A DNA stretch of 64,000 bases from an uncultured Clostridia bacterium (GTDB lineage Bacteria; Bacillota; Clostridia; Christensenellales; Borkfalkiaceae). The stretch's first letter is position 1; each line of letters begins with the position of its first letter. Both the position numbers and the translations under genes were made by a program. Below the pieces are notes generated by a model. That model had not been told where the DNA came from. It ran no database searches and worked only from the letters and a program-made list of their open reading frames with translations. The DNA is taken from NCBI GenBank assembly GCA_947624965.1, contig CANQMN010000002.1, positions 1 through 64,000 on the forward strand, given 5' to 3'. Positions 11,277 through 62,491 of the stretch are shown here, in pieces.

Positions 11277-11297
11277 GTATTATGTCAGACATTATTG
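11277..11297. repeat. Palindromic dispersed motif, copy 1
   Basis: The motif AGTATTATGTCAGACATTAT is one of four near-identical palindromes in the window (others at 48.01, 56.21 and 62.47 kb). Its right arm differs from the symmetrical form in two bases. It overlaps the stop codon of the DnaD-like gene and lies between that gene and the shared terminator. Confidence 0.7.
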
Positions 11298-13025
11298 CCC
11301 GTTTTTGCCCGCTTTCCGCGCGTCGTAGCAGTCGCAGAGCGCGCCGTTCGGGAGAAATCCCGTGTCCGAACATTTCGCGCAGGAATAGGCGGGCGCAAAG
11401 TCGCGCTCTGAAAGATGCAACCGTTTTAGCGCGGAGAGCCGCTTTTGCCGCGCCGCTTCGAGCCGCGCGTTCAGTTCGGGGAGCGAGGCGGGGGAATAGA
11501 TCTCCGCCTTCGCGAGTTCGAGCTCTCCCTTGTTGAGCGCGGCTTCCGCTTCGCGGTATTCCGCGTCCCGCAGGGCGATCGTCTGCGCGCGCTCCACGCG
11601 CCGCTGCGCCTTTTCCCGCAGGGCGGCATAGTAGCGTTCGCGCTCCGCGCGCAGGTCCGCTGCGATCGCCGCTTCCGACCGAAGATCGGGGCGCGGCTGT
11701 TCGGGCTTTGCCCGCTCGGGGATCTCGGAGGGGGCGGCTATGCCCGTCCGCTTCCATTCGGAAAGCAGTTTGTTCATATAGGAGAGCGGCGCGGCGGCGC
11801 CCGCGCTTCGTTTTGCCGCCTCGAAGATCATCGCGTCGGAGAAGTTCCAATTTTTCCACGCGGCGATCATATCGAGCGCGGATTGCGTCTTTTTTACGAC
11901 GCCGCAGACCGTTTGAATGTTTTGCAGAAGTCTGAACTCCCCGTCGCGCTCCGCGCAGTACGCCTTCACGCCCTCGCCGTCCACCACGCCGTCGCGGTAG
12001 AGCTTTTCGAGCAGCGTATCGAGCTCGGGGAACCCGTAGCCGAGTTTGAGCCCGAGCCCCGCGAGCAGGGCAAGGCTCTCCGCGTCGTAACCGCGGTCCA
12101 GCCACTTTTCGGCGTATTCTTCGCAGTAGGGGCGGGGATTTTGCACTTTGACGCCCAGCCGCTTCGCCACCCGAAAGACAACGGCGGTGAGCTCGTTCCG
12201 CCGCGCAAGGTACTGTTTTGCCTCGCTCTCGGTATGTATCTGCTTTTCGTGGAGCTCTTCGGCGAGCGCGTCGAGCGTCGCGAGCGAGCCCTTTTTCAGC
12301 ACCTCCGCCATCGCATAGAGCGCGCCCGTTTCCATGCCGCGCGCCGACCATTTGTCGAGAAATTCGTAGTCGCTCTCCTGCGGCTTCCGGTAGATCCCGA
12401 GCAGGGTGAAGATGCGGGAGAGCTCCTTTTCGTGCACGTTGTAGTCCGCAAGGTCCTGTTCCACCTGTTCGTAGGTGAATTTGCGTTCGCGGCACAGCTT
12501 CGCCGCCTTGTTGAGAACATGGCTCGCGGTGAGCTTTTCGCCGTCCTTTTTCGCGCAGTATTCGGCGACGAGGAGGAACGCCTGCTGTTCCATGGGATTG
12601 TCTTCGAGGAATTGCAAAATGCGCTGCATTTCGTAGGGTTTGAAATCCTTTTGCGCCTTTTGCAGAAGTTTATAGAGTTCGCGGTTGAACTCCGCGTACT
12701 TTTCGGGACGGACGGATTTCGGTCTGCCGACGGCGGCGTTCACGGGCAGATATTCGACATAGAGGGGCTCGCGGGAGAGGACGTGCACAAGGTCGCATTC
12801 CTCCCAGAAGTCGAAGATCTGTGTCAGCTTTTCGGGCGTGAGGCGCAACAGTTTCGCCGCGCTCGCGGCGTCGAATTCTTCCTTGCATTGGCAGAGGTAG
12901 AGCCCGTAGAGATAGACGCGCACGGCGTCCCCGCTCGCCTGCGGCAGATATTTCGTGATGAACTGATTTTCCACGCTCGTAAACATATTCGCGGTAAAAT
13001 CTTTGGAAAAGGCGGTGAAAGACAT
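11292..13025 (-). CDS. DnaD-type replication initiation protein with DnaC-like zinc tail
   Basis: The 577-residue product has an N-terminal helical domain like DnaB/DnaD of Firmicutes (GDAVRVYLYGLYLCQ, ASAAKLLRLTPEKLTQIFDFWEECDLV) and repeated DnaD-like modules (YEQVEQDLADYNVHEKEL, YEFLDKWSARGMETGAL, YAEKWLDRGYDAESLALL, AAWKNWNF). A basic coiled stretch follows. At the C-terminus is SCAKCSDTGFLPNGALCDCY with cysteines 549, 552, 564 and 566, the zinc site otherwise found just before the AAA+ domain of DnaC/DnaI loaders. No ATPase motif follows. It has its own promoter, divergent from sbcD. Its likely role is helicase loading at the origin. Confidence 0.85.
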   Translation of the reverse strand: MSFTAFSKDFTANMFTSVENQFITKYLPQASGDAVRVYLYGLYLCQCKEEFDAASAAKLLRLTPEKLTQIFDFWEECDLVHVLSREPLYVEYLPVNAAVGRPKSVRPEKYAEFNRELYKLLQKAQKDFKPYEMQRILQFLEDNPMEQQAFLLVAEYCAKKDGEKLTASHVLNKAAKLCRERKFTYEQVEQDLADYNVHEKELSRIFTLLGIYRKPQESDYEFLDKWSARGMETGALYAMAEVLKKGSLATLDALAEELHEKQIHTESEAKQYLARRNELTAVVFRVAKRLGVKVQNPRPYCEEYAEKWLDRGYDAESLALLAGLGLKLGYGFPELDTLLEKLYRDGVVDGEGVKAYCAERDGEFRLLQNIQTVCGVVKKTQSALDMIAAWKNWNFSDAMIFEAAKRSAGAAAPLSYMNKLLSEWKRTGIAAPSEIPERAKPEQPRPDLRSEAAIAADLRAERERYYAALREKAQRRVERAQTIALRDAEYREAEAALNKGELELAKAEIYSPASLPELNARLEAARQKRLSALKRLHLSERDFAPAYSCAKCSDTGFLPNGALCDCYDARKAGKNGQ

Positions 13026-13044
13026 GTTTCCTCCGAACGAACGC

Positions 13045-13102
13045 TTGCTTTTTTCCGTCGGCTGTTATATAATAGTATAGCATACTTCCGCGCAAAAAGC
13101 AA
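13045..13102. promoter_or_regulatory. Overlapping divergent SigA promoters (sbcD / DnaD-like)
   Basis: On the plus strand TTGCTT (13045-13050) and TATAAT (13068-13073) are 17 bp apart. On the minus strand TTGCTT (13102-13097) and TATACT (13079-13074) are also 17 bp apart. The two -10 boxes abut, so the promoters should compete for polymerase. Confidence 0.7.
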
Positions 13103-13142
13103 AGTGTTTTCGCGCGCGGGAAAAAATTTTCGGAAAACGGCG

Positions 13143-14294
13143 ATGAGGATCCTTCACACGTCCGATTGGCACCTCGGGAAACGGCTCATGGACAGGGAGC
13201 GTTTGCCCGAGCAAGAGGCGGCGCTCAACGAGCTCGTTGACGTCTGCGAAGCGGAAAAAATAGACCTCGTGCTCGTCGCGGGGGACGTATTCGATACCTA
13301 TCTTCCGCCCGCGGAGGCAGAGGAGCTCTTTTTCCGCGCCGTCAAACGGCTCGCGGGGGAGACCCGCGCGGTCGTCGTCGTCAGCGGGAACCACGACGAC
13401 GGCGTGCGCCTTTCCGCTTCCGCGCCCATCGCCGAACGGCAGGGCATCTACCTCTTCGGGAATGCGCCCGCCCGCTTCACGGCGGGGGGAGACCGTCCCG
13501 TGCGCGCCGTTTCCGTCTCCGAACACAGTCTCGTCATCGAGAACGGGGCGGGGGAGCGCGTCTTTATCAACGCGTTGCCCTATCCCAACGAGGCGCGCCT
13601 CAAAGAGGAGAAGACGGAGGAGAGCTATCCGGAAAAGATCCGCCGCTGGATCGCGCGCGGCGACGAGGGATACTGCGGCGACATGCCGCACATCCTTCTG
13701 TCCCATCTCTTCGCGGCGGGCGGAAAGACGAGCGAGAGCGAACGCGACATCGATCTCGGCGGCGCGCGCGCCGTGCCGCTCTCCTGTCTGCCCAAAGAGG
13801 GCTACGTCGCGCTCGGACATCTGCACAGGGCGCAGACGTTGGGCGAAAACGTCTGTTACAGCGGTTCGCTCCTCGCCTATTCCTTCGACGAGGCGAACAC
13901 GCAAAAGAGCGTCAATCTTCTCGAAACGCACGGAACGGAGATCTCCTTCCGCGCCCTCCCCATAAAAGCGGGGAAACGCCTCGTCCGTCTCGAATGCAGG
14001 GGGGTGGAGCAAGCGCTTCGCCTGCTCCCGCAGTACGGCGATTGTTTTGTGGAACTCACCTTGCTTCTCTCCGCGCCGCTCTCGTATGCGGAGACGCAGT
14101 CTCTTCGGGAGGCGTGCGAGGGGCTCGTCTCTCTCATCGCACGCGTGGAGGGGGAAGCCGCCGCGCCCGTCGTCAGCCGCGCCGCCATGAGCGCGGGCGA
14201 GCTGTTCGCCGCCTATTTCCGCGCGACGTTCGGGGAGGACCCGCCCGCCGCGCTCGCGGAGGAATTTCTCTCCGCGTTGGAGGAACAGCCGTGA
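13143..14294 (+). CDS. sbcD: Exonuclease SbcD (Mre11 homologue)
   Basis: This is the nuclease subunit of the SbcCD complex, which processes hairpins and double-strand ends. The 383-residue product has the phosphoesterase motifs HTSDWHLGK, VAGDVFDTY, VVSGNHDDG, ILLSHLF and LGHLHRAQ in order. The open frame extends far upstream over the divergent gene, but MRILHTSDWH is the family N-terminus. The 3' end overlaps sbcC by GTGA. Confidence 0.95.
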   Translation: MRILHTSDWHLGKRLMDRERLPEQEAALNELVDVCEAEKIDLVLVAGDVFDTYLPPAEAEELFFRAVKRLAGETRAVVVVSGNHDDGVRLSASAPIAERQGIYLFGNAPARFTAGGDRPVRAVSVSEHSLVIENGAGERVFINALPYPNEARLKEEKTEESYPEKIRRWIARGDEGYCGDMPHILLSHLFAAGGKTSESERDIDLGGARAVPLSCLPKEGYVALGHLHRAQTLGENVCYSGSLLAYSFDEANTQKSVNLLETHGTEISFRALPIKAGKRLVRLECRGVEQALRLLPQYGDCFVELTLLLSAPLSYAETQSLREACEGLVSLIARVEGEAAAPVVSRAAMSAGELFAAYFRATFGEDPPAALAEEFLSALEEQP

Positions 14295-16858
14295 GACCCG
14301 TCTATCTCGAATTTTGCGGGATCAACTCCTTCTCGGAGCGCGCGGAGATCGACTTTACCGAATTGCTCGAATTCGGTATCTTCGGCATCTTCGGGGATAC
14401 GGGCGCGGGCAAGAGCACCATTCTCGATTGCATCGGCTTCGCGCTGTACGGGAGCGTCGCGCGGGCGCGCGCGGGAAGCGCCGCCGATATCATCCATTAC
14501 AAGGCGGACAAGGCTTACGTCCGTTTCGAGTTCGAGATCGTCTTTGAAGGGTGCCGCCGCGCCTTCCGCGTCGAGCGGGAGATCAAGAGGAAGAACGCCT
14601 TGCAGGCGGCGCGCGTCTACGAGAAAAAGGAGGGCGCGCTTCTCGCCCTTGCGGAGGGCGTGCGCGAGAGCAACGCGCTCTTGGAGCGCATCATCGGGCT
14701 CGAACAGCGGGATTTTGAAAAATGTATCGCGCTTCCGCAGGGGGAATTTGCGCAGTTCGTGCGCTCCGCGCGTTCGGACAGGCTCAAACTCATCTCCCGC
14801 CTCTTCGATTTGGAGCGGTACGGCGAGGGGCTCGTGAAGCGGGTGAACGCCCGCTATGCCGAAGCGCGCAGCGCGTGGAAGATCGCGGAGACGAGGATGG
14901 AACCCTATCTCAACGCGAGCGAGGAGGCTTGCGGCGCGCTTGCCGCGGAGATCGCCCGCCTCGCGCAGGAGGATGCGTCCGCCGCCCAAGCGCTTGCAGA
15001 CGCGCGGGAGAGAGAAAAGAGGGTTTCCGCCGCGTCGGCGCGCAGACGGGAGCTGGAACGCGCGCAGGCGGAGTGGCGCCGTCTCGAAGAGGAAGCGGAC
15101 GGGATGGAGACGCTCCGCAGCGAACTCGCGCGGCTGGAACGCGCCGAAAACGCGCTCGCCGCCGTGCGGGACGGAAAGGTCGCAAAGGAGCGTTCGGAGC
15201 GTGCCGCGGAGGAACTTGCCGCGGCGGAAAAGAAGATAAAAGGGGCGGAAGAGGCGCTCGCGGCGCTTCCCGCCGAAGATGCGGAGCGGGAGGACGAGGA
15301 ACTCGCCCGTCTCGCGGAACGGCGGGCAAAGGCGGCTTCCGCGGAGCAAACGCGGGAAAAGTTGCGCGTCGCCGCCGCTTCGTTGCAGACGGTCGAGCGA
15401 AAACTGCGCGAGGAAGAGGGGCGGTGCGCGGAATTTCCCTACGGGGAACGCCGCGCCGAACTGGAAGCCCGCATCGCCGCGGCGGAGAGCGGGGATTTTC
15501 TCTCCTTTGCCGCGGCATGCAAGACGGAACTCTTGCGCGGGGAGTACGCGGTGTTTTACGGGGAGCTCAAAGCGCTCGCCGCCGCCAAGCCGATCGTCGC
15601 GGAGGACGTCGCGCCCCTCCTCGAAAAATACGCCGCGCTCTCGGAGGGGAACGCTGCGGAACTCGGCGAGCTCGTTCGCGCCTTCCGGGAGCGGGAGCGC
15701 ACGCTTTCCGCCGCGCGGGAAGAACTGTTGACCCTCGAACGCCAAAAGGCGGAGCAGGATGTGCGCCTTGCCCGTCTTGCCGCTCTGCGGGCGGAAAAGG
15801 CGCGCGCGGAGGAAGAGATCGCCCGCGACGGCGCGCTATTGTCCGGCGTGCCCGCACTCGCCGATGCGGAGCGGGAACTCTCCGAAAAAAAGCGGGAAAA
15901 GCGGGAGCGCGCGGAGGCGAGAAAGAGGGCGGAAGAACAGCGCAACGCGTCCGCCGAAGCGTACGCCGCGGCACAGGAGAAAAAACGCGCCGCCGGGGAG
16001 AGCTTCGCGGAGGCGAAAAAGCGGTATGAAGAAGCGCTTCGGGCGGGCGGATTCGCAGACGCCGCGGAGGCGGGCGCGCTTGTCGCGAAATACGGCGACG
16101 CGGAGGGCGCGCGGGCGCGGCTCGAAGCATACAGGGAAAAGACCGCGGCGACCAAGGCGCGCATTGCACAGCTCTCGGGGGAGGATCACGCCGCCACCGA
16201 GGAGGAGACCGCCGCGGCGAGGGAGGCGCTCGCCCAAGCGGAGGAGTCGGCTCTGCAAAGTGCTCGCACGCTCGCGCTCGCCCGCGCCGAGCTCGTCCGC
16301 GCGCAGGAAGCGCTCGAAAAGAGACGCGCCCTCGAAAAGGAATATGCGGCGGCGGGCAAGCGGGCGGAACTCTGCGAACGGCTGAAAAAACTGCTCGAAG
16401 GCAATAAATTCATGGAATTTGTCGCGGAGGAATATTTGCAGACGGTCGCGCGCAACGCGAGCGGACGGCTGTTGAACCTCACGGACGGCAGATACTTCCT
16501 GCGCTACGACGGGGGATTTCTCGTGGGGGACAACTTCAACGGGGGCGCGGCGCGCGGCGTGTACACGCTCTCGGGCGGGGAGACCTTTCTCGTTTCGCTC
16601 TCCCTCGCGCTCGCGCTGTCCGCGGAGATCTGCGCGAAGTCGCTCCGTCCCATCGAATTTTTCTTCCTTGACGAGGGGTTCGGAACGCTCGACGAGCGGC
16701 TCGCGGACGTCGTGATGGACAGCCTCGAACGCTTGAAAGGGGAACATTTCTCCATCGGGATCATCTCCCATGTGGAGACGCTGAAACACAGGATCGACCG
16801 TAAAATTACGGTGAAAAAGGCGACCGAGAGACACGGCTCGCAAATCATTACGGAGTGA
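14291..16858 (+). CDS. sbcC: Exonuclease subunit SbcC (Rad50 homologue)
   Basis: This SMC-type ATPase of SbcCD has Walker A GDTGAGKST at residues 35-43, the Q-loop region ALPQGEFAQF, a very long coiled coil, the ABC signature YTLSGGETFLVSLSLALAL and Walker B FFLDEGFGTLD. The 855-residue length is below the usual 1000 or more. No CxxC zinc hook is found in the coiled coil; the only central cysteine is in AAACKTEL. The start is GTG overlapping the sbcD stop. Confidence 0.95.
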   Translation: MRPVYLEFCGINSFSERAEIDFTELLEFGIFGIFGDTGAGKSTILDCIGFALYGSVARARAGSAADIIHYKADKAYVRFEFEIVFEGCRRAFRVEREIKRKNALQAARVYEKKEGALLALAEGVRESNALLERIIGLEQRDFEKCIALPQGEFAQFVRSARSDRLKLISRLFDLERYGEGLVKRVNARYAEARSAWKIAETRMEPYLNASEEACGALAAEIARLAQEDASAAQALADAREREKRVSAASARRRELERAQAEWRRLEEEADGMETLRSELARLERAENALAAVRDGKVAKERSERAAEELAAAEKKIKGAEEALAALPAEDAEREDEELARLAERRAKAASAEQTREKLRVAAASLQTVERKLREEEGRCAEFPYGERRAELEARIAAAESGDFLSFAAACKTELLRGEYAVFYGELKALAAAKPIVAEDVAPLLEKYAALSEGNAAELGELVRAFRERERTLSAAREELLTLERQKAEQDVRLARLAALRAEKARAEEEIARDGALLSGVPALADAERELSEKKREKRERAEARKRAEEQRNASAEAYAAAQEKKRAAGESFAEAKKRYEEALRAGGFADAAEAGALVAKYGDAEGARARLEAYREKTAATKARIAQLSGEDHAATEEETAAAREALAQAEESALQSARTLALARAELVRAQEALEKRRALEKEYAAAGKRAELCERLKKLLEGNKFMEFVAEEYLQTVARNASGRLLNLTDGRYFLRYDGGFLVGDNFNGGAARGVYTLSGGETFLVSLSLALALSAEICAKSLRPIEFFFLDEGFGTLDERLADVVMDSLERLKGEHFSIGIISHVETLKHRIDRKITVKKATERHGSQIITE

Positions 16859-16868
16859 GGTAACCATT

Positions 16869-18551
16869 TTGCCGAACACGATTTTAACGCCCGTAACCCT
16901 TTGGAAGGATTTCGACGAGACCCTTCCCTTCAACGAAAACGTCCTCACGGAGACGAGGGAGGACGGCGCGATCGTCCGCGAAGTCGCCTTTTCCGGGCGG
17001 AACACGGGGTCGGCGCGCGTGCGCATTTTTGCGACGTACGCCGTTCCGGAGGACAAGGAGAACTTCCCCGCCGTCATGGTGCTCTTTGAAGCGGGGCTTC
17101 CCTTCGACATGAAATTCGTCAAGCGGCTCATCGGGCAGGGGTACGGCGTTCTGTGCGTCGATTACTGCGGCGAGAACGGGACGGGCAAATATACCGCCTA
17201 TCCCGAGGAAGCGGATTATGCGAATTTCATGCGCGCGGGCAGACATATCGAGTACGCGGAACCCACCGCGCGCGAGACGAGCTGGTACGAATGGGCGGGC
17301 GTGGCGCGCTATGCGGCGCGCTGGCTCTCCGAACGCCCCGAAGTTACCAAGGTCGGCGCGATCGGGCTGCGCACGGGCGGCGAAGTGCTCTTCAAGATCG
17401 CGCCCTATGCGCCCATCTCCTGCATGATCTCCGTCTGCGCGGCGGGCTGGCTCGCCTATCGCGGCGTGGAGCGGTTCACGGACGGCGAGAAACCCGTGTT
17501 CGACGAGGAGCGGCACCGCTTCATCGCGGGCATCGATTCGCAGAGCTATGCGCCCTACGTAAAATGTCCCGTTTTGCTTCTCTCCGCCATCAACGATAAA
17601 AAGTACAATTACGACAGGGTTTACGATACCTTCCAGCAGATCAATCCCGAGGTGGAGAAGGCGATCTTGTTCTCGGCGCACGGAAACGGGCTCATCGGCT
17701 CGCATTCCCTCGCCAACCTGTATCTCTTCCTCGATAAATATCTCAAAGGGCGTTCGGTGTTCGTCAGCCGTCCCATCTCGCTCACGATCGAGGAGGACGA
17801 GGAGGGCAGGCTCGTTGCAAAGGGCACGTACGACGCCATGGGCGAGATCGAAGAATACGGCATTTTCTATACCGAGCGCGCCGCGGCGTTCAAGACGCGC
17901 GACTGGACGCGCGTGCTCGGGAAGGCGGAGGATCTGGCGGAGAACGAGGGGACCGTTCCGCTGGGCGCGTACGAGGGGAGCGATAAACTTCTCGCCTATA
18001 CCTTCGTGCGCTATTCCAACGGGTTTTCCGTCACCTCCAAGATACAGGAGTTCGCGCTCAAAAAGCAGTATAAAAACAGCCGCTACAAGAGCCGCGTGCT
18101 CTATTCCAGCGCGGACGGCATGAACGGATTCACCGCGTTCCGCCGCCGCGCCCGTTCCATCGCGGATTGTTTTGCGGACGGTTCGAGTTCGGACGTCCGC
18201 CTCGTGGCGGGCTACGGCGGGATCCGCGGCATCACGGCGGATGCGGGGCTCGTCTCCTACCGCGTGGGAGAATCCCGCTACGAGCCGCCCGAAGGCGCTT
18301 CCATCCGTTTCGACGCGTGGTCGGAACAGGATGCCCGCTTGAAAATTATCTTCTACAAGGACGCCGAGGAGAACGTCGGCTATTCCTGCGAGGAGACGAT
18401 AGAGGGCGGCGGAAAGTGGAAGAGCATCCTGCTCGACGCGGGCGATTTCAAGTCGGAGACGGGCGCGCCGCTCCGCGATTTTTCGGGGGTCGTCTCCCTC
18501 GTATTTTTCGGCGACGGGGAGATCCTCGTCAACAACGTCATATGGATCTGA
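16869..18551 (+). CDS. Alpha/beta-hydrolase-like protein with C-terminal beta domain
   Basis: The 560-residue protein has an N-terminal part resembling dipeptidyl-peptidase/acyl-transferase hydrolases: [54 protein letters not shown]. The nucleophile elbow reads GLRTGG instead of GxSxGG, so the catalytic serine seems absent. The remainder (about residues 300-560) looks like beta-sandwich modules, the last resembling a carbohydrate-binding fold ([20 protein letters not shown]). The start is TTG after GAGG. No signal peptide is present. Function is not known. Confidence 0.6.
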
Positions 18552-18733
18552 CGGTGCGCGCGGGCGACGTCGTGGAGACGAAGAAGCCCCATCCCTGCGG
18601 CGGCAGGCGGTGGGAGGTCGTCCGCACGGGCGCGGAATATAAGATAAGGTGCCTTACCTGCGGCAGGACGGTCGTTTTGGATCACGACGGTCTCGCCAAG
18701 CGGTTGCGCCGCGGGAGCGGAGAGGAGAGATGA
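18542..18733 (+). CDS. DUF951 small protein
   Basis: This 63-residue protein matches DUF951 throughout: [42 protein letters not shown]. It has one cysteine in HPCGG and a CxxC, suggesting zinc or nucleic-acid binding. The ATG overlaps the end of the preceding gene and its stop overlaps lepB. Confidence 0.92.
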
Positions 18734-19347: not shown

Positions 19348-19364
19348 ATAGGAGGCAGAAGCGC

Positions 19365-20207: not shown

Positions 20208-20230
20208 GACACGACGGAACAAAAGAAGAG

Positions 20231-21571: not shown

Positions 21572-21582
21572 GGCGGCGCGGC

Positions 21583-46175: not shown

Positions 46176-48005
46176 ATGGTCAGAGAAGATTTACGAAACA
46201 TTGCGATCATCGCGCACGTCGATCACGGCAAGACGACGCTGGTGGATCAGATGCTCAAACAGGCGGGAATATTCCGCGAAAATCAGATCGTCGAGGACCG
46301 CGTGATGGACAGCGGCGATTTGGAGCGAGAGCGCGGCATTACGATTTTGGCGAAGAACACCTCCCTGCATTACAAGGGCGTGAAGATAAACGTCGTCGAC
46401 ACTCCGGGACATGCGGATTTTTCGGGGGAAGTCGAGCGCGTGCTCAAAATGGTTTCGGGCGTGCTCATTCTCGTGGACGCGGCGGAAGGTCCCATGCCGC
46501 AGACCCGTTTCGTTACGCAGAAGGCGCTCGAAATGGGACTCAAACTCATCATCGTCGTCAACAAAGTGGACCGCCCCGACGCCCGCGTGAAAGAGGTCAT
46601 AGACGAGGTATTGGAGCTCCTTATGGATCTCGACGCTTCGGACGAACAGCTCGAAAGCCCGTTCGTGTTCTGCTCGGGCAGGGCGGGGACCTCTTCGCTC
46701 GACGAGACGAAACAGGGGACGGACCTCACACCGCTGTTCGATACCATTCTGTCCCATTTTCCGCCCCTCGATTTAGACGACACGGGCGCATTGCAAATTT
46801 TGGTTTCCTCCATCGACTATAACGATTACGTCGGACGCATCGGCATCGGGCGAATCGAGCGCGGCGTCGCACAGCAGGGCGCGGACGTTACCGTGTGCAA
46901 TTACAACCACAAGGACGTCAACGCGCGCGGAAAGATCGTCAATCTCTATGAGATCGAGGGGCTCGAACGCATTCCCTGCGAGAGCGCGCGGGCGGGCGAT
47001 ATCGTCTGCTTTTCGGGCTTGGAGAAGATCAACATCGGGGACACCGTGTGCGCGTTCGGCGCGGAGGAGCCCGTTCCCTTCGTGAAGATCTCCGAGCCGA
47101 CGGTCGAGATGATCTTCTCGGTCAACGATTCGCCCTTTGCGGGCAAGGAGGGGAAATTCGTTACGACGCGGCATTTGCGGGACAGGCTGTACCGCGAACT
47201 GCTGCGGGACGTCTCTCTCCGTGTGGAGGATACGGACAGCACGGACGCCTTCCGCGTGAGCGGGAGAGGGGAAATGCACCTCTCCATTCTCATCGAGACG
47301 ATGCGCCGCGAGGGATATGAATTTCAGGTGAGCGCGCCGAAAGTGCTCTACCGCGAGATAGACGGCGTGCGCTACGAGCCCGTGGAACGGCTCATCGTGG
47401 ACGTCCCCGAGGACGGCACGGGCGCCGTGTTCCAGAGCATGGGCGAGCGCAAGGGCGAGCTCGTGCATATGAGCGCGATGGGATCCCGCATGCGGCTGGA
47501 ATTTCTCGTCCCCGCGCGCGGCCTGTTCGGCTATAAGAGCGAATTTCTCACGGACACCAAGGGCGAAGGCGTCATGAGCTCGGTATTTTTTGAGTATCAA
47601 CCCTATAAAGGCGAGATCGCCCGCCGCACGTCGGGCTCTCTCGTCGCGTTTGAAACGGGGGAGGCGGTAACGTACGGGCTCTTCAACGCGCAGGGCAGGG
47701 GAATGCTCTTCATCGGCGCAGGCACGCCCGTCTATGAGGGAATGGTCGTCGGAATGTCCCCCAAGGACGAGGACATCAACGTGAACGTCTGCAAGACGAA
47801 GCACCTCACCAATACGCGCTCTTCGGCTTCGGACGACGCGCTCCGCCTGATCCCGCCCAAGCGCATGAGTCTCGAAGAGGCGCTCGAATTTATCGCCGAC
47901 GACGAATTGTTGGAAATTACGCCGCTCAATGTGCGCGTCCGCAAGCGCATCTTGGACGGGGAATTGCGGGCAAAGGCGCGCGCAAAAGCGAAAATTCAGG
48001 TATAA
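46176..48005 (+). CDS. typA: Ribosome-associated GTPase TypA/BipA
   Basis: This 609-residue translational GTPase functions in ribosome assembly and stress. It has the G motifs AHVDHGKTTLVDQ, DTPGHADFSGE and VVNKVDRPDARV, with the switch region ERERGITI. The TypA C-terminal domain follows: SAMGSRMRLEFLVPARGLFGY, GQGRGMLFIGAGTPVYEGM-like QGRGMLFIGAGTPVYEGM, and NVCKTKHLTNTRSS. An AGAGGA Shine-Dalgarno supports the ATG at 46176 over the upstream 46152. Confidence 0.96.
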   Translation: MVREDLRNIAIIAHVDHGKTTLVDQMLKQAGIFRENQIVEDRVMDSGDLERERGITILAKNTSLHYKGVKINVVDTPGHADFSGEVERVLKMVSGVLILVDAAEGPMPQTRFVTQKALEMGLKLIIVVNKVDRPDARVKEVIDEVLELLMDLDASDEQLESPFVFCSGRAGTSSLDETKQGTDLTPLFDTILSHFPPLDLDDTGALQILVSSIDYNDYVGRIGIGRIERGVAQQGADVTVCNYNHKDVNARGKIVNLYEIEGLERIPCESARAGDIVCFSGLEKINIGDTVCAFGAEEPVPFVKISEPTVEMIFSVNDSPFAGKEGKFVTTRHLRDRLYRELLRDVSLRVEDTDSTDAFRVSGRGEMHLSILIETMRREGYEFQVSAPKVLYREIDGVRYEPVERLIVDVPEDGTGAVFQSMGERKGELVHMSAMGSRMRLEFLVPARGLFGYKSEFLTDTKGEGVMSSVFFEYQPYKGEIARRTSGSLVAFETGEAVTYGLFNAQGRGMLFIGAGTPVYEGMVVGMSPKDEDINVNVCKTKHLTNTRSSASDDALRLIPPKRMSLEEALEFIADDELLEITPLNVRVRKRILDGELRAKARAKAKIQV

Positions 48006-48010
48006 ACGAA

Positions 48011-48031
48011 GTATTATGTCAGACATAATAT
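48011..48031. repeat. Palindromic dispersed motif, copy 2
   Basis: TATTATGTC, A, GACATAATA is a perfect 9-bp inverted repeat around one base, preceded by AG as in the other copies. It lies 5 bases after the typA stop and just before its terminator. Confidence 0.75.
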
Positions 48032-51758: not shown

Positions 51759-51787
51759 TTGACAAAGGGGAACGCGTTTCCTATAAT
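51759..51787 (+). promoter_or_regulatory. SigA consensus promoter of the GH127 gene
   Basis: TTGACA and TATAAT are 17 bp apart, with a leader containing GAGGA before the ATG at 51817. Confidence 0.8.
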
Positions 51788-51816
51788 GGTGATATTCTCA
51801 TCGAGCGAGGACGGCT

Positions 51817-54129: not shown

Positions 54130-54155
54130 AGGACCTCCCCGTTCGGGGGAGGTCC
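54130..54155. terminator. Bidirectional terminator
   Basis: AGGACCTCCCC and GGGGAGGTCCT pair around GTTC between two convergent genes. On the minus strand it is followed by TTTATTTT, so it mainly ends aroA. Confidence 0.75.
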
Positions 54156-54171
54156 TCGGAATATTTTCCCG

Positions 54172-55437: not shown

Positions 55438-55443
55438 GCCATC

Positions 55444-55471
55444 AGTATAGCAGTTCTTCCGAAAAAGTCAA
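55444..55471 (-). promoter_or_regulatory. Promoter of aroA
   Basis: On the minus strand TTGACT and TATACT are 16 bp apart; the ATG is 6 nt after the -10 box, again predicting a leaderless transcript. Confidence 0.6.
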
Positions 55472-55509
55472 GAAAATCACGATACCGTAGGAAAAAGCGG
55501 AGATTTTTC

Positions 55510-55538
55510 TTGAATTTGAGAGAAATAAATGGTATAAT
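55510..55538 (+). promoter_or_regulatory. Promoter of the YgjP-type gene
   Basis: TTGAAT and TATAAT are 17 bp apart; the ATG follows the -10 box by 7 nt. No Shine-Dalgarno is present. Confidence 0.65.
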
Positions 55539-55545
55539 CTGAAAT

Positions 55546-56193
55546 ATGTCGGTCGATTACGGAATACATATCATCAGAACGGATCGCAGATCGCTCGCAC
55601 TCACCGTAAACGGGAAGGGAGAGGTCGTCGTCCGCGCACCCCTCCGCGCAAAGGACGCGGAGATCGAGGCGTTTGTCGCCCGCCACGGAACTTGGATCGC
55701 CGCACGGCGGGAGGAGATCGCGCGAAAGCCGAAACTTTCTCTCGGCGACGGCGCGCGGTTCACCGTATACGGAGACGAGTACGAGGTCAAAACGGGGAAT
55801 GCCGCCCGCTTCGGAGAGGGCGTCGTCTTTCTTCCCCGCGACGGCAGGGAAGCGGCGCTCGTCCGCCTCCTCAAACGGGAGACCGCAAAGCGCATCGGCT
55901 ACATCGTGGCGCAGTTCGCCGAACGGTACGGTTTCACCTACAAGGGCATCCGCATCTCGTCGGCGCGCGGGAGATGGGGATCTTGCAGCAGGGACGGCAT
56001 GCTTGCGTTCTCCTTCCGCATCGCGTTTTTAACACATGAACAGGCGTGCTATATCGCCGCGCACGAACTGTGCCATACGCGCGTTTTTCGGCACGATGCG
56101 GCGTTCTGGCGGGAGGTCGAGCGCGTCTGCCCGGATTGGAAAGCGCTGCGAAAATCGTTGAAATCGCAAAGTTTTTACATGCAATATTTGTAA
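55546..56193 (+). CDS. YgjP-type metallopeptidase (DUF45)
   Basis: The 215-residue protein has YGIHIIRTDRRSLALTVN, then ISSARGRWGSCSRDGMLAFSFRI and the zinc site AAHELCHTRVFRHDAAFW with H173, E174, H177 and H183. This SprT-like family is often linked to DNA-associated or restriction systems, but its role here is unknown. It precedes tyrA by 57 bp. Confidence 0.92.
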   Translation: MSVDYGIHIIRTDRRSLALTVNGKGEVVVRAPLRAKDAEIEAFVARHGTWIAARREEIARKPKLSLGDGARFTVYGDEYEVKTGNAARFGEGVVFLPRDGREAALVRLLKRETAKRIGYIVAQFAERYGFTYKGIRISSARGRWGSCSRDGMLAFSFRIAFLTHEQACYIAAHELCHTRVFRHDAAFWREVERVCPDWKALRKSLKSQSFYMQYL

Positions 56194-56209
56194 TTTTGCG
56201 TTTTTCATA

Positions 56210-56230
56210 GTACTATGTTAAACATAATAT
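56210..56230. repeat. Palindromic dispersed motif, copy 3
   Basis: TACTATGTT, A, AACATAATA forms a palindrome with one G-T pair around one base, preceded by AG as in the other copies. It lies in the 57-bp gap between the YgjP-type gene and tyrA, 20 bases before the tyrA start. Confidence 0.7.
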
Positions 56231-56250
56231 AGGGAAAAACGGCGGAAATC

Positions 56251-57069
56251 ATGAAAATTGTCGTCTACGGATTGGGGATTATCGGCGGTTCGCTCGCCGC
56301 CGCTTTGAAGCGGGCGGGACATACGGTCTACGGAAAAAACCGCGGGGCGGATGCGCTTTCATATGCGCTTTCCCACGCGATGATCGACGGCGCCGTCTCC
56401 TCCTACGAGGGCGCCGACGTCGTATTTTTGGCGCTTCCCCCGAAGGTCGCGATGAAGGAGTTGGAGGAGGGGGACTTCCCCGCGGGCGTCGTCGTTTCGG
56501 ATATTTGCGGCGTCAAGCGTCCGCTCGAACGCGTCGTCTTTTCCAAACCGAGAGCGTATCGCTACGTCGGGGCGCATCCCATGGCGGGGAAGGAGACGAG
56601 CGGCATCGCTTCCGCGAGCGCGGCGCTCTTCGACGGGGCGAACATCGTACTCACCCGCTCCGCGCACACGGACGGGGATGCGCTTGCGCTTGTTCGTTCG
56701 CTCGCAAAGGAGATGGGCTTCGGGCGCGTCGTGGAGTGCGACGCCGCGACGCACGACGAGATGATCGCGCTCACTTCCCAGCTCGCGCACATCGTCTCGG
56801 GCGCCTACATCAAGAGCCCGCTTTCCGCCGCCTGCGAGGGGTTCACGGGCGGAAGTTTTCAGGACATGACCCGCGTGGCGGGTGTGGACGAAAAGGTCTG
56901 GACGGAGCTGTATTTTCTCAATCGGGACAATCTTCTCTCCGAGATCGGGCGGTTGAAGCGGTGCCTCGGCGAATTTGAGGACGCGCTTGCGCAGGAGGAC
57001 GGGGAGCGGATGCGCGCGCTCCTGCGCGAGGGACGCTCGTATCGGGAACGATTTTTTTCGCAAAAATAA
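56251..57069 (+). CDS. tyrA: Prephenate dehydrogenase
   Basis: This 272-residue enzyme of tyrosine synthesis has GLGIIGGSLAAALKRAGH (dinucleotide motif), VSDICGVKRPLE, YVGAHPMAGKETSGI, CDAATHDEMIALTSQLAHIVSGAYI and TGGSFQDMTRVA. No ACT domain follows, so it lacks that type of tyrosine feedback. CGGCGGAAA precedes ATG. Confidence 0.95.
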   Translation: MKIVVYGLGIIGGSLAAALKRAGHTVYGKNRGADALSYALSHAMIDGAVSSYEGADVVFLALPPKVAMKELEEGDFPAGVVVSDICGVKRPLERVVFSKPRAYRYVGAHPMAGKETSGIASASAALFDGANIVLTRSAHTDGDALALVRSLAKEMGFGRVVECDAATHDEMIALTSQLAHIVSGAYIKSPLSAACEGFTGGSFQDMTRVAGVDEKVWTELYFLNRDNLLSEIGRLKRCLGEFEDALAQEDGERMRALLREGRSYRERFFSQK

Positions 57070-57099
57070 ATTTGATCGGCTCGATTATCCGCGAAACGA

Positions 57100-57128
57100 T
57101 TTACAAATCGCGTTTTTTGTTTTATAAT
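57100..57128 (+). promoter_or_regulatory. Promoter of the DUF1934-like gene
   Basis: TTTACA and TATAAT are 17 bp apart; the ATG is 8 nt after the -10 box with no Shine-Dalgarno. Confidence 0.6.
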
Positions 57129-57136
57129 AGGCTCGG

Positions 57137-57538
57137 ATGGGAAATTGCACAATAGAGATCATTACCGTAACCGAGGGAGACGAGAGCGTTTTTCGCACCA
57201 ATGGGACGTACGTATTGGAATGGAACGCGCTTACCGTCTTTTACTGGCAGGACGGAGACGCCGTCTCTTTGCATTTGGAGCGCGACGGGCTTTCGATGCA
57301 GAGGAAGGGAAAAACGTCTCTTTCCGCGAATTTTTCCCCGGGACGGAAAACTTCCATGCGCTTGGAATTATGCGGTCGCGAAGCGGATCTTCCGCTTGAA
57401 ACGGACGTATATTCCGCATCGTTTTCGGAAAAAGATTTTACCTGTACCGCGCGGCTCGAATATTCCTTTGTTTCCGCGGCGGACGTTCGTAAGTTTCAGC
57501 TTGACATCAAGATCTTTCTTTCTGCGGAGGTCCAATGA
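57137..57538 (+). CDS. DUF1934/YwiB-like beta-barrel protein
   Basis: This 133-residue all-beta protein has NGTYVLEWNALTVFYWQDGD, GLSMQRKGKTSLSANFSPGRKTSMRLEL and the terminal TCTARLEYSFVSAADVRKFQLDIKIF. The layout is that of YwiB-type DUF1934 proteins, although similarity is moderate. It is coupled to the MBL hydrolase by an ATGA overlap and lies just upstream of rho. Confidence 0.75.
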   Translation: MGNCTIEIITVTEGDESVFRTNGTYVLEWNALTVFYWQDGDAVSLHLERDGLSMQRKGKTSLSANFSPGRKTSMRLELCGREADLPLETDVYSASFSEKDFTCTARLEYSFVSAADVRKFQLDIKIFLSAEVQ

Positions 57539-58173
57539 AAATACGCTATCTCGGGCATTCGAGTTTCCTTCTCGCGAGCGAAGCGGGAACGGCGGTCGTT
57601 ACCGACCCGTTCGGCGGGATCGGTTTTCCCATGCCCTCTGTAAAGGCGGACGCCGTAACCGTGAGCCATTCGCATTACGATCACTGCAATGTCTCGGCGG
57701 TCTCGGGGACGCCCGTCGTGTTTTCCGAGGCGGGGAAATATGTCTACCGCGATGTGGAGTTTTTCGGGCTTCCTTGCTGGCACGACGGGGAAAACGGCAG
57801 GCTCCGCGGAAAAAATCTCATTTTCAAGATGAATTTCGACGGACTTTCGGTCTGCCATCTCGGCGATCTCGGGGAACGCTGTTCGCCCGCGCTCGTCGGG
57901 GCGATCGGGCGCGTCGATATTTTATTTATTCCCGTCGGCGGCGTATATACGATAGACGCCCCTTCGGCGAAGGAATACGTGGAGGCGATCCGCCCCGCGA
58001 TCGCCGTTCCCATGCACTTTATGACGAAAGGGCTGAATATGCGGCTGGGGAGCGCGGAAGAGTTTGCGGATCTCTTTTCCCCGAACGCCGTCGGGCGGTG
58101 CGGCTGTGAGCTCGCCGTTTCGCGCCGCGACGTCGGAAATAAAACGAAAATCATTATCATGGAGCGTCAATAA
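57535..58173 (+). CDS. Metallo-beta-lactamase-fold hydrolase (UPF0173-like)
   Basis: The 212-residue protein has LGHSSFLLASEAGTAVVTDPFGG, the metal motif VSHSHYDHCNV, CWHDGENG, CHLGDLGE and PMHFMT, the UPF0173/MBL layout. The substrate is unknown. Confidence 0.9.
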   Translation: MKIRYLGHSSFLLASEAGTAVVTDPFGGIGFPMPSVKADAVTVSHSHYDHCNVSAVSGTPVVFSEAGKYVYRDVEFFGLPCWHDGENGRLRGKNLIFKMNFDGLSVCHLGDLGERCSPALVGAIGRVDILFIPVGGVYTIDAPSAKEYVEAIRPAIAVPMHFMTKGLNMRLGSAEEFADLFSPNAVGRCGCELAVSRRDVGNKTKIIIMERQ

Positions 58174-58176
58174 ACT

Positions 58177-59628
58177 ATGGAATCGGAAACGTTGCGCAAG
58201 CGGTATAAGGATTACCTCGATACATTGCCTTTGAGCATCTTACGCATCATCGGGAGAAACGAAGGGGTGGCGCAACCCGCCGCAAGCAATAAAGAACAGC
58301 TCATCGAGGGGATCGTATCCGTTCTCACGGGAGAGACGAGCCCCGTGCCGCGCTCCAACCGCGGCGCGCCCGTCAAGCAAAATTATATCGATCCGTCCGT
58401 CATTCAAAAACTTGCGGAGATCCGCCGCGCGGCGGACGCGGAAAAACCGCCGTGCGAAGTCAAACTGGAAGTGTCGTCGGGAGAGCCGCCGCGCGTCAGT
58501 CCGCTCGACGAGCCCGTCTATTCCGGCATTCTCGAAATCACGCCCAACGGTTACGGATTTCTGCGGGCGAAAAATTGCCAGCCCTCCAACAACGGGAGCG
58601 ACGTTTTCATCGCCGCCCCCGTGATCCACGCGCTCAGACTGCGGGAAGGGGACTTCGTCGTCTGCACCGCAAAGCCCCGCCTCAAAAACGATTCCCCTGC
58701 AATGGATACGCTTTTGAGCGTGAACGGATGCGCGGTGGGGAGCTATGAACAGCGACCCTATTTCGACGCGCTCACGGCGCGCTATGCGAACGAAAAGATC
58801 GCGCTCTCCGATGGGTGCGACCGTCTCTCGCTTCGCGTGCTCGATCTGTTCGTTCCGCTCGGGAAGGGACAGCGCGCGCTCATCATCGCCCCGCCCAAAG
58901 CGGGCAAGACGACGCTTTTGAAAGACATCGCGGGCGCGATCGGCGAGCGCCACAGAGAGATCAGCCTCATCATCCTTCTCATCGACGAGCGTCCCGAGGA
59001 GGTCACCGATATCCGCACGAGCGTCAGCGGCGCGCAGGTCGTCTATTCCACGTTCGACGAGGGGGCGGAACACCACATCCGCGCGGCGGAACTCACGCTC
59101 GCGCACGCAAAGCGGCTTGCGGAGCAGGGGAAGGACGTCGTTATTTTGCTCGATTCTCTCACCAAGCTCACCCGCGCGTACAACTACATCACCGAAAGTT
59201 CGGGCAAGACGCTCTCCGGCGGGCTCGACGCGGGCGCGTTCGCGGAGCCCAAACGCTTCTTCGGCGCGGCGCGCGCAACGCAGGAGGCGGGCTCGATCAC
59301 CGTGATCGCCACTGCGCTCGTGGAGACGGGCAGCCGCATGGACGATATCATCTACGAGGAATTCAAGGGCACGGGCAATGCGGACATCTTCCTCTCGCGC
59401 GATCTCGCGGAGCGGCGGATCTTCCCCGCGATCGACATCCGCCGCAGCGGAACGCGGAAAGAGGAATTGCTCCTCGCAAGAGAGGAACTTGCCGCCGTCT
59501 ACAAGATGCGCGAACGCGGGCTTACGGACAATGTGGCGGGGCTCCTCGATATGATGAAACAGACGGCGGACAACAGAGAATTTACGGCGCGCCTTCCGGA
59601 ATGGTTGCGCATCTATAAAAGCATTTAG
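58177..59628 (+). CDS. rho: Transcription termination factor Rho
   Basis: This is a 483-residue RNA-dependent ATPase hexamer. The N-terminal part has a Rho-N-like helix region (LSILRIIGRNEGVAQPAASNKEQLIEGI) and an OB-fold with YSGILEITPNGYGFLRAKN. Walker A is APPKAGKTTLLKD, Walker B VVILLDSLTKLTRAYN, the R-loop EEFKGTGNADIFLSRDLAERRIFPAIDI. It is only 3 bp from the MBL gene. Rho may limit antisense transcripts in this compact genome. Confidence 0.97.
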   Translation: MESETLRKRYKDYLDTLPLSILRIIGRNEGVAQPAASNKEQLIEGIVSVLTGETSPVPRSNRGAPVKQNYIDPSVIQKLAEIRRAADAEKPPCEVKLEVSSGEPPRVSPLDEPVYSGILEITPNGYGFLRAKNCQPSNNGSDVFIAAPVIHALRLREGDFVVCTAKPRLKNDSPAMDTLLSVNGCAVGSYEQRPYFDALTARYANEKIALSDGCDRLSLRVLDLFVPLGKGQRALIIAPPKAGKTTLLKDIAGAIGERHREISLIILLIDERPEEVTDIRTSVSGAQVVYSTFDEGAEHHIRAAELTLAHAKRLAEQGKDVVILLDSLTKLTRAYNYITESSGKTLSGGLDAGAFAEPKRFFGAARATQEAGSITVIATALVETGSRMDDIIYEEFKGTGNADIFLSRDLAERRIFPAIDIRRSGTRKEELLLAREELAAVYKMRERGLTDNVAGLLDMMKQTADNREFTARLPEWLRIYKSI

Positions 59629-59637
59629 GTAGAAAAT

Positions 59638-60591
59638 ATGGTCATCGGGATCGATTTGGGCGGCATGTCCGCGAAGGGCGCCCTTCTTTCGGACGGAAAA
59701 TTGCTCGGCAAGACGCGGATCGGAACTTCTGCGGAAAGATCCGCGGAGGAGACCGCGCGCGACCTCGCCCGCCTTGCCGAGGAGACCGCCGCCCGCGCGG
59801 GATATAACCTTGCGGATGCGGAGGCGATCGGCATAGGCGCCCCGGGCGTCGTCGACAGCGCGACGGGGACGGTCGTGAAGTGGTCGAATTTCGGCTGGGA
59901 GAACGTTCCGCTCGCCGCGCTCGTGCGGGAAAAGACGGGCAAAGATGTGTTCGTCGCCAACGACGCGAACGCCGCCGCGCTGGGCGAAAGCAGATACGGC
60001 GCGGGGAAGGGGTATGCGGACAGCGTGCTCGTTACGATCGGAACGGGGATCGGCGGGGGCATCATCCTCGGCGGAAAGCTGTTTGAGGGCTATCGCAGCG
60101 CGGGCGCGGAGATCGGGCACATGACGATCCGCCTCGGCGGCAAAAAATGCACGTGCGGCAGAAGGGGATGCTACGAATGCTATGCGTCCACGCGCGCGCT
60201 GATCCGCCTCACGGTTTCGCGGATGCGCAAGTTCCCCCAAAGCGCGCTGTGGAAATACGCCCCGTCCGAAGAAAGAGCGGACGGAACGACGGTGTTCTCC
60301 GCCCTTGCGGAGGGAGATCCCGCCGCAAAACTCGTGTTTGCGGAATTTATCGCCGCGCTCGGCGACGGGATCGTAAATCTTGCCAATCTTCTCCGCCCGC
60401 AGGCGATCCTTCTCGGCGGCGGGGTGTCCGCGGAAGGGGAGACGTTGCTCGCGCCCCTGCGGGAATATGTCTACCCCCGCCTGTACGTCTCCGAAAAGTA
60501 CGCGCCGCTCGATCTGCTGTGCGCCGCGCTCGGAAACGACGCGGGGCTGTACGGTGCGGCGCAATATGCCGCAGATAAACAAAAAGGCTAA
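59638..60591 (+). CDS. ROK-family sugar kinase (glucokinase-like)
   Basis: This 317-residue kinase has the phosphate loop IGIDLGGMSAKGALLS, GIGAPGVVDSATGTV, VANDANAAALGE, TIGTGIGGGIILGG, EIGHMTI and the zinc-binding CTCGRRGCYECYAS of ROK glucokinases. No helix-turn-helix is fused, so it is an enzyme not a repressor. It probably phosphorylates glucose. Confidence 0.92.
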   Translation: MVIGIDLGGMSAKGALLSDGKLLGKTRIGTSAERSAEETARDLARLAEETAARAGYNLADAEAIGIGAPGVVDSATGTVVKWSNFGWENVPLAALVREKTGKDVFVANDANAAALGESRYGAGKGYADSVLVTIGTGIGGGIILGGKLFEGYRSAGAEIGHMTIRLGGKKCTCGRRGCYECYASTRALIRLTVSRMRKFPQSALWKYAPSEERADGTTVFSALAEGDPAAKLVFAEFIAALGDGIVNLANLLRPQAILLGGGVSAEGETLLAPLREYVYPRLYVSEKYAPLDLLCAALGNDAGLYGAAQYAADKQKG

Positions 60592-60597
60592 AAAAAA

Positions 60598-60624
60598 CCG
60601 CCCCGATCGGGGGCGGATTTTTTT
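60598..60624. terminator. Bidirectional terminator
   Basis: CCGCCCC and GGGGCGG pair around GATCG, with an A-run before and a T-run after, separating convergent genes. Confidence 0.85.
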
Positions 60625-62410
60625 AATCTTTCCGATAGCTTCGCACCTGCAAATAGTAGCAGATCCCAAACACGACGATCCCGAAGAAGAAGAGGATGGG
60701 GATCGCAAGGAAGGTCGCCAGATCGCGCGGGGCGGAAAAGTCGATGGGGATCGCGAGCGCGACGATGAGAACGACGATGACGACGAGGATATACCCGACG
60801 ACGGCGTTCACGAGGATCAGCCCTGTTTTCCGCAGTGCGCGTTCGCCGTAGTGGTTGGCGTACAGAAGTCCCGTTACGAGCAGAAGGGCAAGCCCCGTCC
60901 CCCAGATGAAATAGGGATAGAAGAGGGGAAGAGAGTACGTCCCTTGGATGCCGATGACGATGCTTCCCTCCGCAACGCAGAGGAAGAACACGACGATCGC
61001 GCTCAAAAAGAGCGCTTTTCCTTTATTGACGAGACTTTCGGAGCGGATCGCCTCCTTCACGGGCTTTCCGCCCGCCGTCGTCAGCTTGATGCCGTCGTAC
61101 GCCGCCTTTGCTTCCACATCGGAGAAGTCCACGCCGTCGAGCGATTGCGCGCGCGTTTCATCGGCGGGGCGGCGCTCTGCGGGCTCTTCTTCGTGCGAGA
61201 CCGCGCCGGAATACAGCTTGCCCACGACGGCGCGGTAATCTTCGTCGTCGGGTTCGAGTCCCGCAGTCGCCTGTTGCGCGGGAAGTTCCTCCGTTTCCTC
61301 GGCGACGGGCGCGGTGTAATAGGTGTATTCGGTCGTATCGCGCTCCTGAACGGGAGGAACGTTGACGAGATTGACATAGTTCTGATGGATCAGCTCCTGT
61401 TCGCGGCGGTGGAAGAGGGCTTCCTGCTCCTCGCGGATGCGCTGTTCTTGTTCGGCGAGTTGCCGCTCGTGCTCCGCGCGCGCGGCGTTCAACGCCTCTT
61501 CGCGTTCACGGATGCGCTGTTCCTGTTCGGCGAGCGCGCTCTCATAGGCGGCGCGCTCCGCCTCGATCGCCTCTTCGTTCTCTTTGAGAATGCGCTCGCA
61601 CCGCTCCTGTTCGGCGCGGAGCTGTTCGTCGAACGCCTCGCGTTCCGCGCTCGCCGCATTCTGTCCGTCGCGAAGCATTTCCTGCCGCTCCGATTCCATG
61701 AGCCGTTCGCGCTCGGAGAGGAGCTTGTCCTGCTCCTCCTTTTCGATGCGGAGCTCTTCGCGGCTGCGGTTCATCTCTTCTTCAAAATTGAGACGCTCGG
61801 CTTCCAACGCCGCCCGCATCGTTTCGAGTTCCTTGTTTTTCGCCTCGTATTCCTGCGCGAGCCGCTCGTTCTCTTCGGAATTGAGCGGGGCGAAGGGGAG
61901 TTCTTCCTCGTCTTCCTCATCGCGGGAAGGCACGCGGGAGGTCGAACTGCGGAGCACGCGCATGTTCACCGAGGCGGGCGCGGGATTGGAGAAGTCGAAA
62001 TCCTTGTCCGAAATGAGGGAATCGATGACCGTTCTGGAATATTCCCATTCCGATTGGTTCTGCTCTGCGATCGCTCTGCCTTCGTCCGTCAGCGAGAAAT
62101 ACTTTCTTCTGCCGCCGCCGACGGAACCGCCCCAATAGGACGTGATGTAGCCGTCCTTTTCCAGACGTTTGAGCGCGCTGTAAAGGGAGGGCTGTTTGAT
62201 GCTGTACTGTCCGTGGCTCTTGCGCTCGATCTCGGCAATGATCTCATAGCCGTACTTGTCGCCGTCGCAGAGCGCACGGAGAATGATCGTATTGATGTGC
62301 CCGCGAATGAGATCGGAACTGATGGATCTGTCGTCCCGTTCCGCCTGCTCGTCCGTCTGTTCGTCCGAGGGGAGCTCCTCTTCGGGCTCGTCGCCGTATT
62401 GCTCGTCCAT
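60623..62410 (-). CDS. Membrane-anchored PadR-family regulator with long coiled coil
   Basis: This 595-residue product has an acidic lead (residues 1-30), a complete PadR winged helix (about 34-132: DLIRGHINTIILRALCDGDKYGYEIIAEIERKS, QPSLYSALKRLEKDGYI, wing GGRRKYFSLTDEG), and a linker. A Glu/Arg-rich coiled coil follows (about 185-335: repeats such as AEQEQRIREREEALNAARAEHERQ), then an acidic region and four membrane segments at about 466-488, 497-517, 529-554 and 564-587. Ordinary PadR proteins are about 100-200 residues and soluble. The ATG at 62410 has AGGAG 9 nt upstream; the frame further upstream is not homologous. It probably binds DNA from the membrane; ligand and targets are unknown. 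Confidence 0.85.
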   Translation of the reverse strand: MDEQYGDEPEEELPSDEQTDEQAERDDRSISSDLIRGHINTIILRALCDGDKYGYEIIAEIERKSHGQYSIKQPSLYSALKRLEKDGYITSYWGGSVGGGRRKYFSLTDEGRAIAEQNQSEWEYSRTVIDSLISDKDFDFSNPAPASVNMRVLRSSTSRVPSRDEEDEEELPFAPLNSEENERLAQEYEAKNKELETMRAALEAERLNFEEEMNRSREELRIEKEEQDKLLSERERLMESERQEMLRDGQNAASAEREAFDEQLRAEQERCERILKENEEAIEAERAAYESALAEQEQRIREREEALNAARAEHERQLAEQEQRIREEQEALFHRREQELIHQNYVNLVNVPPVQERDTTEYTYYTAPVAEETEELPAQQATAGLEPDDEDYRAVVGKLYSGAVSHEEEPAERRPADETRAQSLDGVDFSDVEAKAAYDGIKLTTAGGKPVKEAIRSESLVNKGKALFLSAIVVFFLCVAEGSIVIGIQGTYSLPLFYPYFIWGTGLALLLVTGLLYANHYGERALRKTGLILVNAVVGYILVVIVVLIVALAIPIDFSAPRDLATFLAIPILFFFGIVVFGICYYLQVRSYRKD

Positions 62411-62435
62411 GCCTTTTTTCTCCTTGTTTTTCTCT

Positions 62436-62464
62436 ATTATATAATATCCGACAAAATTTGTCAA
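62436..62464 (-). promoter_or_regulatory. Promoter and operator-like palindrome of the PadR-type gene
   Basis: On the minus strand TTGACA and TATAAT are 17 bp apart. A perfect palindrome GACAAAATTTGTC (about 62450-62462) overlaps the -35 box and spacer, as expected for an autorepressor site. Confidence 0.65.
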
Positions 62465-62472
62465 TAGACAAA

Positions 62473-62491
62473 GTACTATGTCAGACATAAA
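62473..62491. repeat. Palindromic dispersed motif, copy 4
   Basis: AGTACTATGTCAGACATAA matches the other three copies. It lies 9 bp upstream of the -35 box of the PadR-type gene, between it and the divergent YkvI-like gene. Its core ATGT...ACAT is the half-site type used by PadR proteins. Confidence 0.7.

Follow-up and report, generated by a model that had tools for sequence, protein, structure and literature searches.

Polar sites in the terminus region of an uncultured Clostridia chromosome and a PadR-family membrane protein as their likely binder

What does a short palindrome do that recurs four times, always in the same orientation, on one contig of an uncultured Clostridia bacterium (Christensenellales, Borkfalkiaceae; GenBank assembly GCA_947624965.1, contig CANQMN010000002.1)? 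The window analyzed here comprises positions 1 to 64,000 of this contig. The original prediction, made from the letters alone, described four near-identical intergenic copies of a plain 20-bp palindrome, too many to be expected by chance, and offered a chromosome-organization or segregation site, a recombinase site, a mobile palindrome or the binding site of a global regulator as explanations. The copies turned out to be exact: AGTAYTATGTYARACAT occurs with no mismatch at the four plus-strand positions given in Table 1, each one base before the start first reported. Six matches with up to three mismatches were found in the window, two of them the reverse reading of the same palindromes, vs 0.04 expected from 100 dinucleotide shuffles, in line with the view that chance does not account for them. 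We interpret the motif, with a probability of about 55%, as a polar replication-fork trap site for which PadR-4TM, a PadR-family protein with a predicted membrane domain encoded in the window, would serve as the terminator and perhaps also as a tether of the terminus.

The motif is in excess in the own genome (G000; 1,791,033 bases, 34 contigs), in which a search allowing two mismatches returned 20 rows vs none for the reversed-pattern control; these reduce to about 17 places, since a near-palindrome appears as two rows. The matches are confined to contigs C2, C7, and C13, which together hold 317,523 bases or 17.7% of the genome. A search of 24 other genomes from this genus gave at least one match in each; thus, both the excess in the own genome and the conservation in relatives, by which the prediction could be checked, were found. 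At the same threshold, sites occurred in 31 of 34 genomes of the own family and, across the order, in 89 of 396. When dyads were counted de novo, TATGT-N3-ACATA emerged on contig C2 (6 vs 0.05) and TACTA-N9-TAGTA in genome G119 (4 vs 0.07); TATGT-N3-ACATA was not among the top dyads of genome G206.

The orientation of the sites tracks replication. On contig C2, the cumulative GC skew climbs to a maximum at 138 kb and declines beyond it, and the sites lie on the plus strand up to 134.6 kb and on the minus strand from 153 kb. Hence, all four window copies share one strand because the whole window belongs to one replichore, and the polarity that had been proposed from these copies holds for the contig. 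The orientation switches at the skew peak on six contigs of six genomes that hold this peak, including G007:C1 (peak at 115 kb), G015:C7 (48 kb), and G006:C1 (49 kb). On G206:C1, from another genus, the switch lies at about 590 kb, with two reversed sites at 641 and 647 kb, and on G347:C1 it is less clean, at about 225 kb (11 sites right, 3 wrong, and 1 ambiguous). In G000, G007, G015, and G206, the contigs that carry dnaA have no listed sites.

In seven genomes, an orientation-blind scan yielded 116 core sites, located on 10 contigs. Scored with a matrix trained without the tested clade, 101 of these were oriented with replication, 10 against it and 5 were ambiguous; the figures were 82, 9, and 5 upon omission of G006, a near relative of G007, and 102, 9, and 5 when dif, or the xerS next to it, served as the boundary. 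Of the nine wrong sites in the latter count, two lie beside dif in G007 and G006. In these genomes, tandem site pairs lie within about 100–300 bp of dif (G007:C1, 109297–109337; G006:C1, 43221–43260), and the dif-adjacent sites do not obey the polarity rule cleanly when dif is taken as the boundary. In a control for gene direction, which covered 78 sites in four genomes, the sites located in lagging-strand genes, between two such genes, or in convergent or divergent intergenic regions were right in 15, wrong in 3 and ambiguous in 3 cases; therefore, gene direction does not explain the polarity. The evidence that the sites and their polarity are real is strong.

The site itself is longer than the plain 20-bp palindrome first described: it spans about 28 bp and is asymmetric. 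With sites oriented by position alone, the consensus reads W-W-R-C-A-W-A-G-T-A-Y-T-A-T-G-Y-S-W-G-R-C-A-T-A-A-T, with a preceding T; conservation extends from −18 to +9. On the origin side, a weaker palindrome, CATA-GTAC-TATG, overlaps the strong palindromic core, TATG-N5-CATA. A half-site beyond the two of the core, CAWA, creates this second inverted repeat; with three of four letters matching, it was found on the origin side of 86 of the 116 sites and on the terminus side of 15, and exclusively on one side in 74 vs 3. The weak side thus faces the origin, as a fork trap would require. Two winged-helix dimers might sit side by side on the strong core and the weak palindrome, bound with unequal strength. 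Forks arriving from the origin would meet the weak side first and pass, those overrunning the terminus would meet the strong core first and stop, and the stopping of overrunning forks would cause forks to meet near dif.

Which protein might read the sites is suggested by site 4, which lies between a divergent gene pair, padR-4TM on the minus strand and the gene for a 382-residue hydrophobic protein on the plus strand. The PF03551 match of PadR-4TM scored 70.9 bits vs a Pfam cut-off of 27. Four C-terminal helices were predicted in all 16 complete open reading frames (five in one of them) and in 18 of 20 in a second set. The C-terminal region was detected in 30 of 34 own-family genomes vs 3 of 362 others searched, the PadR domain at E ≤ 1e-22 in 259 of the 396 genomes of the order. 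Most of the PadR-domain matches listed in the order-wide search belong to frames of 400–1000 amino acids, and among 291 genomes of the class PadR frames of at least 400 amino acids occurred only within the order. Of 30 padR-4TM loci listed, 25 come from genera g1, g18, and g21, and every one of these has a site (up to three mismatches) just upstream of padR-4TM on the opposite strand; the remaining five comprise two weak diverged sites, one odd case and two loci with none. This upstream site is on the leading strand in all seven genomes with known replication direction. Variants of the palindrome were also seen by eye upstream of padR-4TM in L330 (G053, family f29), L333 (G070, f18), L334 (G189, f32), and L338 (G196, f19), which suggests that the promoter site is older than the own family. 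Within family f32, 21 genomes have a close PadR domain and 7 a diverged one; sites were present in 18 of the former and in none of the latter (Fisher 1e-4, kinship not corrected for). Here the half-sites, 3 bp apart, match the ATGT/ACAT repeats that PadR operators consist of according to excerpts of PMC3506622, and binding is predicted. Judged from sequence, there is good reason to take PadR-4TM as the likely binder.

Table 1. Positions of the polar sites, of padR-4TM and its domains, and of the divergent neighbor in the window
Feature	Position	Strand	Description
Polar terminus site 1	11269..11296	+	AGTATTATGTCAGACATTAT at 11276; position weight matrix 39.7 bits, reverse strand 20.5
Polar terminus site 2	48003..48030	+	AGTATTATGTCAGACATAAT at 48010; position weight matrix 46.9 vs 32.0 bits reverse
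Polar terminus site 3	56202..56229	+	AGTACTATGTTAAACATAAT at 56209; position weight matrix 43.3 vs 27.1 bits reverse
Polar terminus site 4	62465..62492	+	AGTACTATGTCAGACATAAA at 62472; position weight matrix 45.6 vs 25.2 bits reverse
padR-4TM gene	60623..62410	-	595 amino acids: PadR winged helix, long acidic/coiled-coil-like linker, C-terminal four-helix membrane domain (predicted)
PadR winged-helix domain	62069..62284	-	PF03551, residues 43-114, E 8.8e-20
C-terminal region, four predicted transmembrane helices	60626..61153	-	From hydropathy
Divergent 382-residue hydrophobic protein	62550..63698	+	Start 58 bp past site 4; context only

A site in the promoter region of a regulator gene would also be expected if the motif were an ordinary operator of a PadR regulon whose members cluster near the terminus by chance, and some further sites do occupy promoter positions. 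The genomic context makes this extremely improbable. Sites are conserved at orthologous places across species, beside unrelated genes; site 3, for instance, lies upstream of a prephenate dehydrogenase gene, and the same placement was found in G007, G015, and G006. The intergenic placement originally described applies to the window copies and fails elsewhere in the terminus region, where sites lie within coding sequence. One is located inside spoIIIAE in five Gallimonas genomes, with a third-position identity of 0.71 vs 0.48 (3 of 361 windows as high), another inside dxs, intact in four of five genomes and degraded in G347, with 0.66 vs 0.49 (34 of 556 windows as high). Because our gene calls are rough, being open reading frames made without a gene finder, we assert a position inside a gene for these two Pfam-supported genes only. 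Together with sites between convergent genes and a polarity that follows replication, not transcription, these findings speak against an operator and also against the proposed global regulator, even though one copy lies in the promoter region of the probable binder. The orthologous positions beside unrelated genes make a mobile palindrome or REP element unlikely, and we reject it. In contrast, the idea of a chromosome-organization or segregation site gains from sites that are confined to the terminus region, polar with replication and, as a check at orthologous loci indicated, conserved in place.

The gene at the skew peak is XerS-like: XerS is its top-scoring NCBIfam model, although the 202.5 bits fall short of the model's cut-off of 267. 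Next to it, an exact dif-like repeat, CTATTCGCAAAA-N6-TTTTRCGAATAG, was found in G000, G007, G015, and G006. As this separate repeat adjoins the XerS-like gene, the motif itself is unlikely to be the recombinase site that had been considered. The stretch separating the full repeat from the xerS-like gene contains a single dif-like half, TCAATTTTACGAATAGTTA (G000:C2, about 134290; G007:C1, about 109100; G006:C1, about 42880), which is degenerate in G015 and may serve to control the recombinase gene. The linkage of padR-4TM to this machinery extends beyond the own family: the sequence retrieved around 20 homologous loci from other families, chosen for family diversity, contained xerS in 11 cases, a dif-like repeat with up to 5 substitutions in 7, and at least one of the two in 16. 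Polarity towards dif and a candidate reader gene linked to xerS/dif would also fit an orientation signal that guides or loads a DNA translocase towards dif/XerS, as KOPS do for FtsK; KOPS are leading-strand biased and densest near dif in the accessible part of PMC5357621. However, KOPS are, as far as source excerpts go, 8-bp sites read by FtsK itself, short and spread over the whole chromosome, whereas the sites here span about 28 bp, have dimer-type symmetry and are terminus-confined, so that we consider such a signal very improbable.

The same linkage, the spread of the sites over the terminus region and the four-helix membrane domain are consistent with a terminus tether resembling MatP/matS, in which PadR-4TM would hold the sites at the membrane or septum. 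Polarity would then be incidental: sites would be tolerated only in the orientation in which forks from the origin can pass. MatP itself (PF06303) was found in none of 21 genomes over E 0.001, with a positive Escherichia coli control. Yet for tethering alone, an asymmetric auxiliary half-site would not have to be conserved, and the asymmetry is strongly kept; matS is palindromic. We regard a tether on its own as unlikely. PadR dimers are described as strikingly similar in fold to the replication terminator RTP (excerpts of PMC3506622, from which the fold likeness is taken; the winged helix here is assigned by sequence). This likeness, the weak side facing the origin, and the failure to find RTP, Tus or MatP over cut-off in 21 genomes lead us to favor a fork trap whose terminator would be a membrane-anchored PadR protein unrelated in sequence to Tus or RTP. 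The tether is its main rival or a second function, in which the C-terminal domain would keep the terminus region membrane-bound close to the XerS/dif machinery.

Several observations weigh against a fork trap run by PadR-4TM. The RTP family (PF02334) gave no match over cut-off in the 21 genomes, apart from one weak sub-threshold match in another family, with Bacillus subtilis as positive control, and RTP is not among the 60 PDB chains listed for the PadR profile. The half-site spacing, ATGT-N3-ACAT, is shorter than the 8–10 bp quoted for LmrR in the source excerpt, and peptides fused to the C terminus of RTP lower arrest, as source excerpts describe, which is hard to reconcile with a large membrane extension. 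The 116 sites are not independent, because they are shared by descent and many are orthologous. In G119, of family f32, the sites are weak and of unclear polarity (12 with replication vs 7 against), and we therefore claim polarity for family f1 only. The co-occurrence of gene and sites is also imperfect: four f32 genomes without a PadR match at threshold hold 0, 4, 4, and 3 sites, G383 and G365 encode the protein and have no site at up to two mismatches, and padR-4TM is present in families where the motif is hardly found. Two own-family genomes, G329 and G320, hold 8 and 3 sites, and no long PadR was found in them. This would be expected if the polar sites were bound by another protein and the PadR gene were merely one neighbor, the more so as several other genes also have conserved neighboring sites and PadR binding is deduced from sequence features. 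The match of the half-sites to the PadR operator class, the 25 of 25 promoter sites and the terminus linkage of padR-4TM in other families argue otherwise and render another binder quite unlikely.

Turning to the surroundings, the 382-residue hydrophobic protein has no Pfam match, and its orthologues occupy the same place in G015, G006, and G007. An RNA family was rejected as an explanation of the motif, as the Rfam matches in the window are three tRNAs only; the window has three tRNA-Leu genes, of which the one at 4236–4319 carries the anticodon AAG. Among viral contigs, one exact copy of the 20-mer was seen, at 2220–2239 on the minus strand of a 47-kb IMG/VR contig (L364).

Compared with known terminus systems, the locus shares with XerS/difSL an XerS-like gene adjoining a dif-like inverted repeat at the skew peak; it differs in that this repeat is a neighbor of the motif rather than the motif itself, and in a spacer of 6 bp, not 11. 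With MatP/matS it has in common many sites confined to the terminus region and a possible link to the division membrane, but the sites here are polar and the proposed binder is itself predicted to be an integral membrane protein. Two opposed sets of polar sites around dif and a site in the promoter of the terminator gene are also features of Tus/Ter of E. coli, as source excerpts describe it; Tus, however, acts as a monomer on a non-palindromic 23-bp site, and PF05472 was found in 0 of 21 genomes (E. coli control positive).

The closest parallels are with RTP/Ter of B. subtilis. According to the accessible parts of PMC10331603, PMC5295017, and PMC13220808, RTP sites consist of two imperfect inverted repeats, arrest occurs when the strong B side is met first, rtp is autoregulated, and dif and rtp lie in the middle of the trap. 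The sites here likewise show, as a sequence pattern, overlapping strong (B) and weak (A) repeats with A facing the origin; they have the same orientation relative to replication as RTP sites, occupy a limited part of the chromosome, form two opposed sets flanking dif and the region of the candidate terminator gene, and include one in the promoter of that gene. The differences are a binder of PadR family PF03551 instead of PF02334, a long linker and four predicted transmembrane helices, another site sequence and a larger number of sites. A literature search returned no paper linking PadR to the chromosome terminus and dif, or to replication termination and the fork (most subscription papers lay outside its coverage). 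Fork traps are described, in excerpts of PMC10331603 and PMC13220808, from a small bacterial group only and as two unrelated inventions, Tus and RTP. We tentatively put forward, at somewhat less than an even chance, that the order-wide PadR-4TM, at the xerS/dif locus in several families, represents a third, independently evolved fork trap and the first with an integral-membrane terminator, combining a one-way fork stop with a terminus fixed to the membrane. The sites, the gene and the predicted polarity make a PadR fork trap testable now. If true, its membrane domain would directly suggest what ties the terminus to the envelope in the absence of MatP, and the system would be a further fork-trap invention, from a transcription-factor fold already resembling RTP, showing a route from regulator to terminator.
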